Assembly (NCBI GenBank): GCA_000827205.1 | Contig: KN832565.1 | Span: 158,088-186,105, forward strand | Length of the DNA: 28,018 nt | Source of the DNA: Plicaturopsis crispa FD-325 SS-3 | Taxonomy: Eukaryota; Basidiomycota; Agaricomycetes; Amylocorticiales; Amylocorticiaceae | Direction: 5' to 3' | In this document: positions 260-28,018 of the stretch, piece by piece | Layout of the letters: each line of letters opens with the position of its first letter | Numbering within the stretch: the first letter of the stretch is position 1 | Made by a program: the position numbers and the translations under genes | Notes under the pieces: generated by a model | Told to the model about the DNA's origin: nothing | Databases searched by the model: none | The model's input: the letters and a program-made list of their open reading frames with translations, nothing else

Positions 260-875
260 TAAATATCACAGGAGTGGCACTAGCTTGTAGTAACTATTAT
301 CTTGATCATCCTCAAAGATGCTTGCGTAACAAGTGGGGGCTCATTTGCTAAGGTATAATGGATGAGGAATTGTAGTCTTCTGTATCAAATGGAGCTGCCT
401 GCACGATATCGTATGCCTATCCGAGAGCTTTCGGTCAAGACGGACACTTCACTACCAGTGTACCACAGCGGACGCCGCCAGCGTGTAATCACGTGGTCCT
501 GGTTGAGGGTAGGTTTTCCTGTATAATCCAAATCGAGACGTTTGTCGCGGTCAGCCAAATTAGAACTCAGATCGGCCAGTCTGGATATCGACGCTTGCTC
601 ATTATCCAGAGTGGTCACCAGTCTAGTCGGAAAACCCTTGGTAATGGGCTTGGGCAATTGCGGTTCGGAAAGTGTACTGATTATGTAAGCACTTTACCAG
701 TAAACGCGACTTTGAAAGTGACGCGCCTCCGGTCCTCAGCCCAAACGCAGTCTACAACATGGGTATTGCTCGCAAGCGCGCAAGCATTGGCAGTAGGTAT
801 GGTAGGTACGTTGAATGCTAGAATAGATGGTGAATAAAAAGATTAGCTATGATTAAAGTGTTCAATATCGTATTG
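260..875. other. Intergenic stretch between convergent genes
   Basis: About 616 bases between the stop of the partial forward gene and the stop of the reverse transposase-like gene. Open frames here are short and resemble no protein I know. An AATAAA-like stretch lies near 833-838. I looked for terminal inverted repeats matching the far side of the neighbouring transposase-like gene and found no convincing pair. Confidence 0.5.
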
Positions 876-3800
876 TCAATTGTCCATGGCCGTGTCCGAG
901 TCACCCCCGTCCCTGCCAGTATTATTATATGGCGAATTCGATCTGTCCTCCTGCAGACGTCGTTCAGCATCGGCACCATCATGCCCCCCCTCCGTAATAT
1001 CAAGATCCAAGTCATCGGAATGGCGTGCAATTGCTGCGGTTAGTGCAACAAGTTTCTCTGCTTTGAGTCTTGAGTCTTTCTTCTTCGGGATCTCCTGGTC
1101 GCCAAGTTCACGATGCTTATCCAGCTGCTCTTCAAGCTGCCCGCATGTGAGAGACCCGAGAGTGGACACGTCGAGGTGAAGTGCAAGGCTCGATAGATGT
1201 GCGCTTTTGTCGGCTTGCTTCTGAGCCCTGGCCGCGTCCTTCGAGCGCTTCTCCGCGACGATCCTCTCATCGTACTCGTGCTGGGCTTTACGTTGCTGTG
1301 CTGCAAGGCCGCTCGCATCCTCCTCTCGTGCCTTTCGTCGAAGGTACTGGTGGTCTTCATCAACAAACATGGCATCCATGAACTCGCCGGTGCCGTTGTG
1401 ATTGTAAGTTGCCTGTGCATTGTAGGCGTAGACGGTCGTGTTGGGTTTCATACGGGCATGCAGCCGGAAGGACCCTAACGATCCCTCATTCGCATCGTTT
1501 GTTGCAGGCATCCATGCGCGCTGCCGCTCGTCAGCCGTCGCCTCGTCGATCAAGCCCCCCGGAGCAAATTCTGACGTGAATCGCTCCCACGTCGCAAGCG
1601 CCCCGATAAAAAAGGCAACCGTTATCGGCCGGACGTGCGGGAGGGTGGGGGCGAGTTCGTGGATTGCCTCGATGACGTCGGAACGCGCCCATTCCTGGCC
1701 GTCCATGGTTGCCGTCTCGAAGCTGGCCTCAGGTGAGAGCAGGAGATCCACATTGTCGATTATCTTCTGACAGTGGTTCTTTACGCGAACGTGAAGAGGG
1801 CCCAAGTCTAGCATGTTTGCGCCGTGTCCTTCCAGTCCCCGCACACAGCACATGTAGGGATATGTGACCGCGAGGGCGTATAACGCAAGCGCGACGAGCT
1901 CGGTGAGTGTTGCGAGGTCATGCAGCGCGTCGAGAATGTTCTGTTCCATGTGGTTGAGCTTCCGATTCGATTTCTTATCGCGCTCCGTCTTCAGCAGCTG
2001 AATGATGCCCAGGATGTAAACCAGGGCTTCCATTGCCGCGTCACAATGCGACTGGTATCGGGTGTTATTTGTGTCTGGGAATTTCGAGAGGCGGCCGTAT
2101 AATTCATGTACGTGGATTCGGTATAGGTCCTGATAACCCTTCTTATCATCCTTGTGGTTCAGCAGCGCACCGAGGAGTTGTGTCAGTTTAACGCCACCAC
2201 GCGAGGAGATTTCGAACGCGCGTTTTTCGGCAGCCGTGGTGTAACCCGATGAGGATGCTCCGTCGAGCGTCGCAGCGTTGTCGCGGTTTGCAAGCAGCAG
2301 GGGCCCGACAATGTTATTTGCGATCCACCATTCCTGCATCGCACGATTCCCCCCTTTGACCGAATTTAACTCCTTGTGCATGCAGCACCCGCACCAAATG
2401 AAAAGGTCCAGCTCGCGCTTCCTCTTCTCCGGTAGGTCCGCGTACGCTTCCTTTCCTAAGCGCACGGACAGCTCCGTCATGGCTTTGACCTCGAGCACGG
2501 TCTGGGCCTCCGGGGAAAGGGCCTCCCATGCGTCGTCGCCTCCCGCTTCCGCAATTTTGCGACGGTTCGTATCGAGGAGCAGTGCAAGGAGCTCGTCCGT
2601 AGGCCGTGCGATCAGCTCTTTCCGGCCGAGTTCAGCCTGCATGCACTCCGCTTTCCACAAGCATGCAAGCCGGTACAGCTTCTTTTGGTCCTCAGCATGG
2701 TCCGTATTCATCCCCGAGAACTTCGCGACGATCTCCTCGGCCTCCAGTGTTATAGCTTCACGTCTCGCGAGGGGGCTCTCATTATAGGCGATGCGGATGC
2801 TCTCAAGGTCTTCCTTCAAGCCCGACAGCTGACTTTCGCTCGTATGGTTCACGGAGGTTCGTATCGACAGCAAACGCACACGTTGAGAAGGGCTTTCATG
2901 ACCGGTACCCGGCGCGTAGGACCTAGCCTTGAGTGCGATGTGACGCGACTCGTACTGGAGGCTCTTATGAGACGTTCCGTCCGTGCTCACGGTAAAGCCT
3001 GTTACGGTAAATTCTATTAGTGCAGTTCCCGGGGAAACGACGAGGACACTTACTCTCCGAGTTCTTCACTTCATGACCGAGCTGAATTCTAGATGCTATG
3101 CCTCCCTCACGGAGCGCCCGAGCGACCGTACGCCTGCTGATCCTTCCTTTAACAGAAATTCCTAGCATCGACGCAATGGATGCGATCGTTGGCCCCACAT
3201 GGTCCTGCGAGCAGCCTGCTTTCACTAACTTCCTCGCAAGCGATCGGACGCATGGCGTATATCCACCCTTATGCGTGAGGCGAAAGGTATGGGCGGTGGT
3301 ATGGGATTGTCGTTGTGCGCGTGCCGCGGCTTTTGCGATCCGCTCAGGTATTCGGTCGCATTTTATCTTGTATTTCTTGATGGTCTGCTTGCTCACGACA
3401 TCCTTCCGCTTGTAGAACGACGCGGTGGACACCGCCTTCTCCATGAGGTGATCGATAAGGTCCTGGCGGGCCTCATTGTCAAGCCGCGCGGACTCTAGGC
3501 GTTGCTCGGTCTCGTACAGCCTTGTCGAAGCGGCTGGGAGCTGAACAAGCTCCAAGTCCCGCACGCGCCCGGCAAAATCTTTGCGAGCGGCCTTAGCCCG
3601 CTCGACTTTCCGTCGCTCATTGCGGTATATCCGGTGCACGTCCCGCAAACGCTGCTGCGACGCTGTGCGCGCGTCTTCACTCGCGGCGAGCCTCCTGTGT
3701 GCCTCAGCAAGTGCAGAGCGCGTCGCGTCATGGCGAGCCCTCTCCTTAGCAGCCTCCATGCGACTCGCAGCCAGTTTCTGACGAGTGGCCTTGAGGCTCG

Positions 3801-4011
3801 CATTTAAGGCTGCCATTTCGCGTTTTGTCGCGCCTGCTCGCGTTATGCGGGTAGACGATGCTGGTGCGGGGTCTGCATTCTCTTTATCGGTGTCGTTCGC
3901 ATGCAGATGGTGAGTGCCGGAGTGGGAAAGATTGTGCAATAATGTAGATTTATTTTTGAGTGCCGAAAATCGTTTCGTGGGTCTCCGAAGTGCCCGTTGC
4001 TTTGCGGCCAT
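876..4011 (-). CDS. Uncharacterised Agaricomycete family protein with N-terminal coiled coil and a transposase-like D-D-CxxH-E pattern
   Basis: Two exons, 4011-3054 and 2998-876, joined across a 55-base intron (2999-3053; GTAAGT donor, CTAAT branch, ACAG acceptor), give 1026 residues. The junction restores KNSESFTVSTDGTSHKS. Residues about 65-210 are a charged coiled coil. Residues about 250-315 are a helix-turn-helix-like segment ending RRTVARALREGGIASRIQLG. The C-terminal body carries D326 (STDGTS), D419 in MNTDHAED, C524-x-x-H527 in CGCCMHKELN, a long helical segment, and E824 in ATNDANEGSLGSFR. From memory these blocks are conserved in a large, functionally unassigned basidiomycete family. 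The order D, D, CxxH, helical insert, E matches RNase H-fold DNA transposases, so I infer a transposase or a domesticated derivative. I saw no terminal repeats. The tail is Lys/Glu-rich and probably unstructured. Confidence 0.82.
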
Positions 4012-4864
4012 GATCCAGTACTGAGTACTGCCCTACAGCGAAGGCCACCGGAGAAACTCCATGTCTGTAAGATACTACAACTGATTGTGTGTGAATTAGC
4101 ACGAAAGTCTGCCATATATTTGAAAGACCACGCACCGAGTCCGACTCCTCAGCCTATCTGTTCAACTCCACCCCGACCCACGAGCAAAATATTGAAACGC
4201 GATTAAGTATTTTAAATGTCCTTAACAGACGAGAGGAGGAAACAGGAAAGAGGAGAGGCGCTATGCGCCAGTGAGCGTTAACGGGGGCAGGAGGTCGAAA
4301 GGCAAGGAAAATCCGCGGCGCGTCAAACGCGCTTGTGGCTGAGATCTTACCGTGTCTGTACACTCAGCACGGAAACATGCACGGAGGTCGCTTCGCTCGC
4401 TGGATTGCTTCAATTACCACAGCAAAAATGCTCGTAAAGAGTATATCTGTGATATCATTGCTACAGATTTTTCTTGCTCTCGAATTTACTCTTGATCCAC
4501 TCAGTGAACGCGTCCATTAAACCGAATAAAACATAACAAAGCAAATCCTTTGCAATCATATCACAGAGTAGGTATATACCCCCAATTCCTTCTCTCAAAG
4601 TTGTTGCCAAAGTGAATGTACGAAGATGCATGCATGTTTCCGTGAGCTGTACCGTTTAGACGCGTCCGAATGGCTGCATCCCAGCACTGCCACAATCGTG
4701 CGAACTTATTTTGATAACAGGGAATTGCCCAAGCCCATTGGTAAAGTTTAGATGAGGTTTATGCAAGTTAAGGACCGATTTTAATCCACGTGGCACATGT
4801 CTTCCTTCCGGCAACTGCTCGCAGCTCAGACTCTGCCCGAAATTTATTATTTTTCTGCTCGACG
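4012..4864. other. Intergenic stretch between divergent genes
   Basis: About 850 bases between the start of the reverse transposase-like gene and the start of the thioesterase gene, so it should hold both promoters. It is more AT-rich than its flanks. A small palindrome (CAGTAC-TGA-GTACTG) lies just upstream of the reverse gene near 4017-4031. No convincing coding frame or RNA gene is seen. Confidence 0.5.
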
Positions 4865-23466: not shown

Positions 23467-23750
23467 CGGATCGTCCGCCGTCAATCCGAATGCGGACGAT
23501 TACGGTTTTGACGCGGTCTGACGGTCGGAATTACGGTCGTCAAGTTTCCGTCAAGGATCACGGGGTCTGAGAACCGGTACCACTTGCCTTGAGCGGCGTC
23601 GCAAGTCGCGACGCCGCCGACGCGCACTGAAGCGACGCTCACCATGGCCACTGTGATATATGAGCCTCAAACTAAATGTAGCGAGAATAAATAAATAAAT
23701 GAGATAACATTGGCAGGAGCCTGACAATTTCTACCCCCTCCGAGTCCCCT

Positions 23751-26593
23751 ATGCCAAGAGGGACACGACGTCTTAACATCTGGGACGAGTTTATCTCAGA
23801 TGGCACAAAGTACCGCGACAACAAATCACACAAGAATGCGTGGTGCAAGGCATGTGTCACGGCGAAAGCCCGGGTTCTCGAACAAAAGGATCACGACGCG
23901 ATTATGAACGGAGAGGGGCGACATTCCCGCTCCGAGGGGGAGTACCTGGAAGACGGTATGTCAATAGTGATAGTGGAATGGATTGTACACTTACTTCTCT
24001 GATAATGCAGCTCGGATACATCATGTTACGCCCATCAGCGGACGGCCCAGCGAGACCATGCTCAATCATATTCTTAGATGCGCGCATGTCCCCGAGTCTG
24101 TCCGACAGCAATATCAGCGCACGGAACCCAGTGGGGCGGAAAAGGAGAACGTACCTGCACTGGGTTCGAGCCCCGCTTCGACGAGTACCGCCCAGATCGC
24201 ACGAAACCGTGGCTCCGAATCACCTCTGAAAAGGCAACGTACCGGCGCATCATCCTCGACCGCCACTTCATGGGCCGCCGCCGCACCCGCACCTGTTCAA
24301 GCCAGAACCTGGTCAAATGCAGAGCAGAAAGAGTTCGAGAAAGACTTACTTCAAGTCTTTGTTTCGTGCGGATTTGCATGGAATGCGGCAAATAACATCG
24401 ATTTTCGTTGGTTCATGCACAAGTGGCTAAATGGACTCCACGTTCCCGATCGTCGCACGCTGGCTGGCCGGTTACTCGATGCAGAGGTTGAGGCAGTCGA
24501 TGCCAAGGTCAAGGAGGCTGTGAGGGGGAAGCTCGGGACCGGACAATGTGATGGGTGGAAGAACATTGCGAAGGTGTCCCTACTGGCCTCGATGGTGACC
24601 GTCGAGGGACAGGTCAGTCTGAAGTTATTCGGTTATTTTGCGATTGCTTACAGGCTCTTAACCTATTCAATAGATCTATGTTCTTCATGCTTTCGACGTT
24701 TCTGGCGAGCGTAAAACGGGCGAAAACGCGTTCGCACGAATGGAACAGGAGGTCGAATACTGCGAAAAAATCCTCCGCATTGAGGTCATTGCGTGGGCGA
24801 GCGATAACGGTCCAGATTCAAAGAAAGGACGCCGTTTGCTGATTCGCGTACGACCGTGGATGATTGGAATTGAATGCTGGGGACACCAGGTAAGCACTTC
24901 ACTGTAGACTTTGCGAGATGCGACGTACTCACCACGGATACCAGACATCTCTGATCCTCGGTGACTACCTCAAGGCCAACCCTCGGTTCATCATCATTAT
25001 AGACATCGCAATCGACATCGTCAAGTGGTTCAATAACCACAGCGTCGCATTAGGGATCCTCCGCGAAGCACAGAAGGCAGGGCCACTGGAAAAGGTCCTT
25101 GCCCTCATTCTACCAGTGATCACTCGATGGACTGCACACCTGTGCACCGTTTCCCGCCTTCTCATTGTTCAGGTGCCTCTTCGGACATGTGCTATCCGAT
25201 ATCACGAACAACTGCTGGGGGCAGCTGGGACAAAAGCAGAGCAGAAGGCGAAAGCGGGCGAGATTCTGGGACATGTGGGTAATCCCGCGTTCTGGAACGA
25301 CTTGGCGATGTGAGTACTAGCTCTAACTTTGTTACCGGCTTCGAGATCTCATCGTCCGTGTAACAGAATTGAGAAACACCTCACCCCTCTTGGCATTGCC
25401 ACAAATGTTGCACAGGCTTCCAGTACACGCCTCGATCATGTCCTCCTCATGCTCGCCAACCTGTACCGTATTTACGGAAAGCCAGACATGGGAACCGAAG
25501 CACGGACCACTATGCACGCGAGCCTCGAGAAGCGATGGGCTCAATGCGACCGCGACATCTTCATTTTGGCTGTCTTCTTCAACCCTTACATCCGTGCTCG
25601 TGCCTTCGCCCCTGGGAACGATTTAACGACGTCGGCCGGCCTTTACGCGATGGCAAAGAAGGCATATATTCGCGTTTACCGTGGTACGAAGCCAGGCGTG
25701 GATTTCCTCAACGCATTCCACGATTATTTCCACGGACGCGAACAGTTTTCAGCCGACTACATGCAGCTCGACGAGATTATGGAACTGTCCGCTACGGAGG
25801 CAAGTTGCGACCTTAATTCATCACACACAATCTTCTCACACATGCTTTTCAGAATAAAACTGTCGATCTAGTTCGGGTTTGGCAAACGATCGACACCGGC
25901 TTAAATAGTGGGCGAAACGCACTGGTGAAGCTTGCTATTCGGATCCTTAGCATCATCGCCAATTCCGCCGGCTGCGAACGACTTTTCAGTCAGATGGGCA
26001 TCACGCATACCAAGCTTCGCAACCGCCTCGAGGCCGAAAAGACTCGCAAAATCGTCGTGGTAAAGCAGGATCGGGCGCGCGTGCACGCCGAGGCAGGACT
26101 TGCCCGTCCACGAACAAAGCGCAAATTTGGCGCATCCGGCCCATCTGCATCCGAGTTAGGCGACGCCGATGCTGCGAGTAGCAGTGCTGTCCCCGATATA
26201 CCGGAGGACACAGCACATGCCGACGATCATGGCGAGGACGCCAGCTTCGCCCGAATCGCCGCTAATCTCACGGAATCGGCGACCGCGGACGACGAGGCAG
26301 CGCCAGAGGGCGATGTATCCGACGACGAGCTTCCCTCGAACCCGATTGCTAGCACACCTCGCACCCAGGCTACTACTTCGGCTGGACCGTCACAACCGGC
26401 GGCGCCTGCTCCAGCAGCCCCACCGCGCGGAAAGGAACAGTATCTCCTCAAAAATTTATTTGACTACGAGTCGGGAGGTTTGCTTAAGTATGGTATTGAT
26501 TTTTATTGGAAGGATGGCAAAGACAATTTCGAGCATGAAACCGCCGTCCATGATGCCTTCGCACAGTTAGACTTAGATACTTCATTCTCATAG
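23751..26593 (+). CDS. hAT transposase with BED zinc finger
   Basis: Six exons (23751-23955, 24011-24612, 24674-24889, 24945-25309, 25367-25799, 25853-26593) give 853 residues with no stop. Introns are 55, 61, 55, 57, 53 bases; the last has a GC donor (GAG|GCAAGT). A BED finger spans the first junction (WCKAC at about 31-35, then HILRC). Catalytic acids are D249 (GQCDGWKN), D313 (WASDNGPDSKKG) and E649 (NSAGCERLFSQMG); C337-x-x-H340 (CWGH) and the TRWTAH motif of the hAT core are present. The helical dimerisation region ends THTKLRNRLEAEK. An acidic, Ser/Ala/Pro-rich linker follows at about 680-790, then a short aromatic C-terminal block (FDYESGGLL, DFYWKDGKDN). The protein cuts and pastes DNA by binding the terminal repeats. 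All key residues are intact. Confidence 0.92.
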
Positions 26594-26841
26594 TTTTCCC
26601 CCTCATTCGGACTCGTTGGACTGATCTTCATTTTATTCTCCCTTAGTAGTAAATACGTTATGTTCCTCACTAGTCTTACTTGTACAGCACATAGACTTGA
26701 CTTGACTTTATATTCTCAATCTCGTCTATCCGGTCTACTGGTGCAGCGACCGTATTGACGGTTACTCGACGCCGTCAATGACGCCGTCGAAAAACCGTCA
26801 AAACGGATTTCCCAGGATAATCCGCCGTAATTACGGCCGTA
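26594..26841. other. 3' non-coding and subterminal region of the hAT element
   Basis: AT-rich sequence after the transposase stop, then a repeated-motif zone: TTGACGG at 26755-26761 and CCGTCAA at 26772-26778 and 26795-26801. The left end has CCGTCAA at 23481-23487 and 23548-23554. Confidence 0.7.
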
Positions 26842-27001: not shown

Positions 27002-28018
27002 ATGGCCTCAGTGCATAATGCTGCGACCTCTACTCAGCAATCAGTTAGGATCCATCCCGGTATGTGCTTATTCTATAGTGTTTCATCATAGTAAGCTGAT
27101 ATCTTTGCTCATCAGAACAGCCTATGCCCTCCAATATGTGAGTTGCCCTGTATGAAAAAAAAATCCTTGGAAACCCCTAAACATATACAAATTAGGCTTG
27201 CCCTTTCAAATGCACCCCCTCCTGCTCCCAAGAATTTTCATGGCAGGGATGAGTATGTGAACAAGGCAGCAGAGCTCATCTCCACTGCTGCTCCCACAGA
27301 TCCTGTCCGCCTGGCCATTCTTGGCTCTGGTGGCATAGGCAAAACATCTGTTGCACTCGCCATTTTGAATCATCCACAGATCACACAGAAACTCCGCTAC
27401 TTTGTGCCTTGTGATGCATTCACAAGTGCCTCCATGCTTGTTGCTGGGATTTTGCGGGTATTTGGCATGCATAATTACCCCAAAGAGGATCCGTTGCAGG
27501 TTCTTCAGAACAGTGTTATCCGTGCAGCTCCTATGCTGCTGATTCTAGACAATTTTGAGACTACCTGGGATAGCAGTGAATCTCAGACTGCTGTTCGCGG
27601 TGTCCTGCAGAGACTTGACATACCTACTGTTACTTTGATCATCACCATGAGGGGAACTTCAAGTCCCATGGGAATACAGTGGAATCCACATCCTCTGTTC
27701 CTACCTCTGGGAAAGCTGTCACTAGATGCTGCTAGCAAGGCCTTTGTGGGAGCCAACCCCCAGGCTGCATCTGCAGAGTCTGACGAGGATATTAAGGCCT
27801 TGCTCAATGTGGTTGAGTGTATTCCGCTGGCAGTAATTTTGATGGCACAGCTATCCAAGACTGAAAGTTGCAAGAGACTGCTAATGCGATGGGAAAAAGA
27901 GAAGACATCTCTTGTGGAACTGCATAGCAGGTCCAAAGACCGCTTAAACAGCCTAGATGTTTCTATATCATTGTCTATAATGTCTCTCCATGATGAGCCA
28001 GAAGCTTTGCAGCTTTTG
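27002..28018 (+). CDS. NB-ARC (NLR-like) protein, 5' part; runs off the window
   Basis: Exons 27002-27059, 27116-27137 (22 bases) and 27196 to the window end, with introns of 56 and 58 bases (GTATGT and GTGAGT donors; ATCAG and ATTAG acceptors), encode 301 residues and continue beyond the window. After a short N-terminus the sequence reads PPPAPKNFHGRDEYVNKAAE and then the P-loop ILGSGGIGKTSVALAIL (K76). Walker B is MLLILDNFE (D145), a sensor-like LIITMRGTS follows, and VECIPLAVILMAQL is the GxP-type motif. This is the nucleotide-binding switch of STAND ATPases. In basidiomycetes such proteins carry TPR or other C-terminal repeats and are thought to act in non-self recognition or signalling; the repeat part is not seen here. 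Codons are visibly more AT-rich than in the other genes of the window. No N-terminal effector domain is present. Confidence 0.85.

Follow-up and report, generated by a model that had tools for sequence, protein, structure and literature searches.

Transposases of the hAT superfamily contain, in this order, two aspartates, a CxxH motif, a long helical insert and a glutamate, and a BED finger is usual. Their target-site duplications (TSDs) measure 8 bp, or 5-7 bp in named subgroups, and hAT termini begin with YARNG. Elements of the P superfamily generate TSDs of 7-8 bp (7 bp in Galileo) and have termini that start with CA, while their transposases possess a coiled coil and an HTH before the core, a GTP-binding insertion domain, and a block with the catalytic glutamate that is followed by a PN.T-like motif. 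Hypothetical proteins of animals include some that have TN...E and PNAT..EA...NKT blocks. Finally, a 7-base duplication also accompanies Abr1, a small element of Agaricus bisporus.

The D-D-C/DxxH-E signature is ascribed to hAT, Kolobok, P, MuDR and Dada (PMC3706591). Several groups that make 7-base duplications occur in fungi: hAT7 elements of Pucciniales have 7 bp TSDs, and Kyakuja, with hosts in the Agaricomycotina, combines a 7 bp TSD with CA..TG ends and no terminal inverted repeats (TIRs) (PMC12730594). Dada transposases carry D, D and E plus C/DxxH, create TSDs of 6-7 bp and are known from the fungus Laccaria too; the families described there are without TIRs, target tRNA and snRNA genes and contain zinc fingers (PMC3706591). 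In Agaricus bisporus, Dada is listed with 15 families, and Abr1 is named beside hAT (PMC7473861). A non-autonomous hAT-type element has likewise been linked to ABR1 in the literature. Within the portions of the literature searched, with Repbase outside the scope of the search, no description of the element family reported below was recognised; Abr1 could be a relative of it, or not.

The window analysed here is a stretch of 28,018 nucleotides from Plicaturopsis crispa, and it contains an element of 4,093 bp at positions 645-4737, oriented on the minus strand after its gene. Both ends, read inwards, are TGGGCTTGGGCAATT, giving 15-base TIRs at 645-659 (plus strand, the gene-3' end) and 4723-4737 (minus strand, the gene-5' end). 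TTGGTAA directly abuts both TIRs, at 638-644 and 4738-4744, as a perfect 7-base duplication. An earlier note on this DNA had found no terminal repeats, which these TIRs and their abutting duplication now correct. A subterminal GCGGTTC at 660-666 (plus strand), recognised by eye, lies at the same offset in four elements (the window copy, C1a, C16 and C5), and variants of this block occupy that offset elsewhere, namely CCGGTTC in C23 and GCGGGTC in C1b, C10 and C14. The C labels denote genome contigs, the window being C12:158088-186105. We read the locus as a complete cut-and-paste DNA transposon whose single recognised gene encodes its transposase, belonging to a lineage unmatched by the catalogued models tested, and assign this reading a probability of roughly 0.87.

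Further copies of these termini were found in the genome (33.2 Mb, 49 contigs). An exact search for the 14-base terminus located 12 occurrences, as opposed to none of the reversed pattern; allowing up to two mismatches, 69 matches were obtained compared to 27 for the control. The exact termini comprise five exact pairs, one end on C16 and an unpaired end on C27, whose partner was not found within the stretch examined. The partner end on C16 differs by two mismatches in 15 bases, and one C16 end reads GGCAT. Six elements are thus paired, and 11 of their 12 ends carry all 14 bases of the terminus unchanged: the window copy (4,093 bp), C1a (4,090), C1b (1,521), C10 (995), C14 (1,002) and C16 (1,006). 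Copies are few in this genome. Together with the relatives on C5 and C23, eight both-ended elements were available for comparison.

Exact 7-base direct repeats flank seven of these eight elements (TTGGTAA, CTCCTCC, CAAACTT, TCTTTCG, CTTATTC, CAAGAAG and TTGTTCT), with 7 being the longest abutting length. C23 is the exception, as its flanks agree at 4/7 bases and form no exact duplication despite perfect 13-base TIRs. In a control in which the two ends were moved by up to 30 bases (8 elements with 3,720 shifts each), only 2 of 29,760 pairs gave an exact 7-base match. The 15-base TIRs and the fixed 7 bp TSD, from which C23 alone departs, are shared with class II cut-and-paste elements of the TIR type. 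Scans of the eight loci holding the both-ended elements for tRNAs and Rfam families returned 0 tRNAs and 0 Rfam matches.

The four short copies resemble the window element at their ends. C1b, C10 and C14 align to its first 78-102 and last 400-480 bases, all outside the gene, with an additional weak 52-base match within the gene for C1b; C16 is alike over about 50 bases at each end and nothing more, and the middles of the short copies do not align with the window element. The four copies are non-autonomous. Over their aligned pieces, C1b and C10 share 98.7-99.2% identity, yet each occupies its own site between perfect duplications, a sign that non-autonomous copies have moved recently. At the ends, both are about 82-85% identical to the window copy, which is therefore unlikely to be the element from which they directly derive. 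C1b (C1:586416-587936) also contains two copies of a piece of about 240-320 bases from the gene-5' end region, one of them internal.

The gene of the window element lies on the minus strand, with an ATG at 4011 and a stop at 878-876. Exon 1 (3054-4011) encodes residues 1 to 320 (in part), and exon 2 (876-2998) encodes the remainder of residue 320 to residue 1026 plus the stop codon, and carries every motif of the D/D/CxxH/E series. The predicted intron between them (2999-3053) has 55 bases and the form GTAAGT...ACAG; the predicted intron of the C1 copy is placed at the identical site. Removal of 3053-2999 leaves a single open frame and a product of 1026 residues, in agreement with the spliced protein proposed in the earlier note. 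The exon-1 part includes a conserved block, KGxYT...VGP.I..IA...G...R.TV...EGG.AS..QL..E, at 3082-3279 (minus strand; about residues 245-310), which appears HTH-like by eye from the window and C5 sequences, the exon-1 matches in the genome protein search being weak. A scan of the region 3900-4800 for bacterial promoters and terminators gave no signal, with 0 promoters (1.1 in shuffles) and 1 terminator-like site (0.7 in shuffles).

Relatives of the protein were identified by a genome protein search, the copy counts of which are lower bounds. Compared exon by exon, the close copy on C1 is 85% and 69% identical. C5 reaches 43% and C23 39%, and C10 holds a split copy (39 and 42%). In an exon-2 alignment of 732 columns, the identities of C1, C5 and C23 to the window protein are 84, 42 and 38%. 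A single TGA in C23 sits upstream of the open frame of exon 2, in a stretch that by eye is likely to hold an intron. The C5 element ends with TGGGGACCGGCAATC and TGGGGACAGGCAATC and C23 with TGGTGATGGGCAA, all of which fit the pattern TGG.....GGCAA. These termini and a GCGGTTC-like subterminal block are thus common to diverged families, and since ends and protein are shared across such distances, they appear to form one transposon lineage. About 2.1 kb past the C23 element, a further terminus of the C23 type, TGGTGATGGGCAAAGGTCCC, is present at C23:178595. In the split relative on C10 (C10:1239074-1253419), about 12 kb separate the two pieces and a KDZ match (C10:1248900-1249683) lies between them, an arrangement of apparently nested mobile elements.

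It might be asked whether the gene is a passenger in an element that is moved in trans by another protein, as catalysis by the 1026-residue protein is putative. This would be very surprising: antisense open reading frames of up to 186 residues that overlap the coding exons aside, it is the sole gene recognised inside the element, and its homologues lie within elements with related ends in the diverged C5 and C23 families.

The candidate catalytic residues of the transposase are D326 (STDGTS; codon at 2979-2981), D419 (MNTDHAED; 2700-2702) and E824 (TNDANEG; 1485-1487), with C524xxH527 (CGCCMHKELN; 2376-2387) between the second aspartate and the glutamate, all on the minus strand. These residues had been named in the earlier note and are found at exactly those positions of the spliced protein. 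Variation of the D/D/E positions among homologues had been suggested there as a way to refute the transposase reading; D326, D419, C524xxH527 and E824 are invariant in 4/4 aligned proteins (window, C1, C5 and C23), which leaves that reading standing. Furthermore, the fifth, broken copy on C10 retains D326, D419 and E824 in their motif blocks. However, 20 acidic residues are invariant across the four proteins, the triad and 17 others, and invariance by itself cannot pick out D326, D419 and E824. The local conservation of E824 lies at the 98th percentile, that of D419 and of CxxH at the 95th and that of D326 at the 72nd, while D603 and E796 also reach the 95th percentile in blocks conserved equally to that of D419. 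The choice of the triad follows from the motif order and from analogy with D-D-C/DxxH-E transposases; the RNase H fold, which the earlier note had likened to the hAT/KDZ type, is a putative one. A crude propensity plot, which is weak evidence, places a strand-like stretch ahead of CxxH and helices around it.

In the mechanism that we propose, the transposase would bind the TIRs and the conserved subterminal blocks via its N-terminal part, and a putative DDE-type active site formed by D326, D419 and E824 would cut and rejoin the DNA. A staggered 7-base cut of the target, followed by repair, would then produce the 7-base duplication. The non-autonomous copies, about 1-1.5 kb in length, would be mobilised in trans.

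Profile searches did not place the protein in a catalogued family. At E<=10, Pfam (hAT models included) returned 0 families, both for the full protein and for 4/4 exon-2 proteins (window, C1, C5 and C23). The one NCBIfam match, in 1/4 members at E 1.2, was taken as chance, and sequence searches of the PDB gave single matches at E 2.3 and 3.3. A genome search with PF21787 gave 0 matches, its control being equally silent. Scans of viral contigs and of bacterial and archaeal genomes with a few short peptide patterns provided no relative confirmed by tblastn, although with so few patterns distant relatives could escape these scans.

Kyakuja shares the 7 bp TSD of the window element (PMC12730594), and KDZ transposases are common in this genome, as suits an Agaricomycete, with 43 matches to the KDZ model (exon by exon), 42 of them above the cut-off. 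A distant KDZ branch near Kyakuja is nevertheless improbable. The working KDZ model matches neither the full transposase nor any of the 4/4 exon-2 proteins, the motif blocks of KDZ proteins are unlike those of the window transposase, and an hhalign comparison with seven KDZ proteins of this genome yielded a probability of 0.1%, both profiles being shallow. These proteins represent seven of eight KDZ loci, L077 being left out as its longest frame is not KDZ. In addition, Kyakuja ends in CA..TG and is without TIRs (PMC12730594), whereas the window element has TGGG..CCCA ends with 15-base TIRs and no second gene recognised. KDZ membership was rejected on the termini, the missing profile match and the hhalign result. 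Dada resembles the window family in its D, D, E and C/DxxH residues, and the 7 bp TSD falls within the 6-7 bp of Dada. However, the described Dada families have no TIRs and target tRNA and snRNA genes, as opposed to TIRs and no tRNA or Rfam family at the eight loci here; with no profile match either, Dada membership was rejected as well.

A highly diverged hAT element is an unlikely but more serious alternative. The D..D..CxxH..E order is the same as in hAT transposases and the distance from CxxH to E, 297 residues, is similar to that of Hermes. The cut-and-paste mode and 7 bp TSD are likewise those of hAT7 from Pucciniales (PMC12730594). No hAT model of Pfam matches any of the 4/4 proteins, though; in the rest of the genome, the hAT dimerisation model has 13 matches. 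The TGGG...GGCAA termini, beginning TGGGC, are at odds with the YARNG start of hAT elements, no BED finger was recognised, and the 105 residues from D419 to C524 far exceed the Hermes spacing. Alignment to a fragment of the hAT transposase in the window by hhalign gave a probability of 0.1%, a weak test as it used a single short sequence.

A transposase of the P superfamily or of a related animal type, its THAP domain lost or replaced, is another candidate: P elements and Galileo make 7-8 bp and 7 bp TSDs, their proteins have a coiled coil and HTH ahead of the core and a PN.T-like motif after the E block, and TN...E and PNAT..EA...NKT blocks occur in hypothetical animal proteins. We consider this origin rather improbable, since Pfam models are unmatched in 4/4 proteins, THAP was not recognised and the window terminus differs from the CA start of P elements.

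Among the known 7-base groups (Kyakuja, hAT7, Dada and Galileo), none fits in both ends and protein. On its sequence, the element is a TIR cut-and-paste transposon whose family has been mobile recently and whose putative transposase is uncatalogued; we do not assign it to hAT, KDZ, P or Dada. The lineage may represent a superfamily of its own or a remote offshoot of a known one; superfamily status would be plausible, and a diverged hAT or P-type relative is possible. The fuller proposal of an undescribed eukaryotic cut-and-paste superfamily, defined by TGGNNNNNGGCAA termini, asymmetric conserved subterminal blocks, strict 7-base duplications and a putative coiled-coil/HTH-like D-D-CxxH-E transposase of about 1000 residues that current family models do not recognise, is tentative, at somewhat less than even odds. 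The earlier note had raised a possible undescribed transposase lineage, and this gains substance from a complete element with TIRs, 7-base TSDs, non-autonomous copies, diverged relatives that share its termini, and no Pfam match.

Comparison of exon 2 between the window copy and C1a gave dN 0.098, dS 1.42 and a dN/dS of 0.07, a rough value because dS is near saturation; it indicates that the transposase has been kept by purifying selection over a long time. Such selection, together with an intact frame and the finding of two close full-length copies (a lower bound), could also be expected of a host gene domesticated from a transposase, as the earlier note had suggested. This is hardly credible for the window gene, the TIRs of which are intact, the TSDs perfect and the ends shared with other elements, while C1a sits inside a methyltransferase gene. 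With ends, duplications and reading frame all intact, domestication was rejected in favour of the complete transposon.

When the flanks of C1a (within C1:1444500-1454400) are joined with one copy of the TSD, the reconstructed empty site has a continuous frame, in which a 229-residue stretch matches Methyltransf_33 (Pfam E 7.8e-32). C1a thus appears to interrupt a coding exon of a methyltransferase gene, which indicates that the element is able to insert into ordinary genes. We take the split gene to encode a histidine-specific methyltransferase of the EgtD/Egt1 type, which by family knowledge would act in the ergothioneine pathway; absent any other intact Methyltransf_33 copy, the strain may be without this enzyme. 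With a host gene split by one of its copies, the family acts as a source of mutation, and mutagenesis with an intact member could be tried. The earlier note had known such proteins only as hypothetical ones; placing them in transposons with defined ends would turn their annotations into those of a family of mobile elements. For annotation, the termini together with the 7-base footprint can be searched for directly, and they allow superfamily membership to be tested.

Two other features were observed in the window. A separate hAT-type transposase gene lies at about 23700-26600 (plus strand), in which the hAT dimerisation model matches C12:184003-184158, equivalent to about 25916-26071 of the window; two other pieces of this gene gave no Pfam match. 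The start of an NLR-like gene is located at 27308-28018 (plus strand), where it is cut by the window end. It contains an AAA/NACHT/NB-ARC P-loop, LAILGSGGIGKTS, and its matches to NACHT (E 6.6e-5) and to AAA_22 (E 8.2e-6) fall slightly short of the curated cut-offs.
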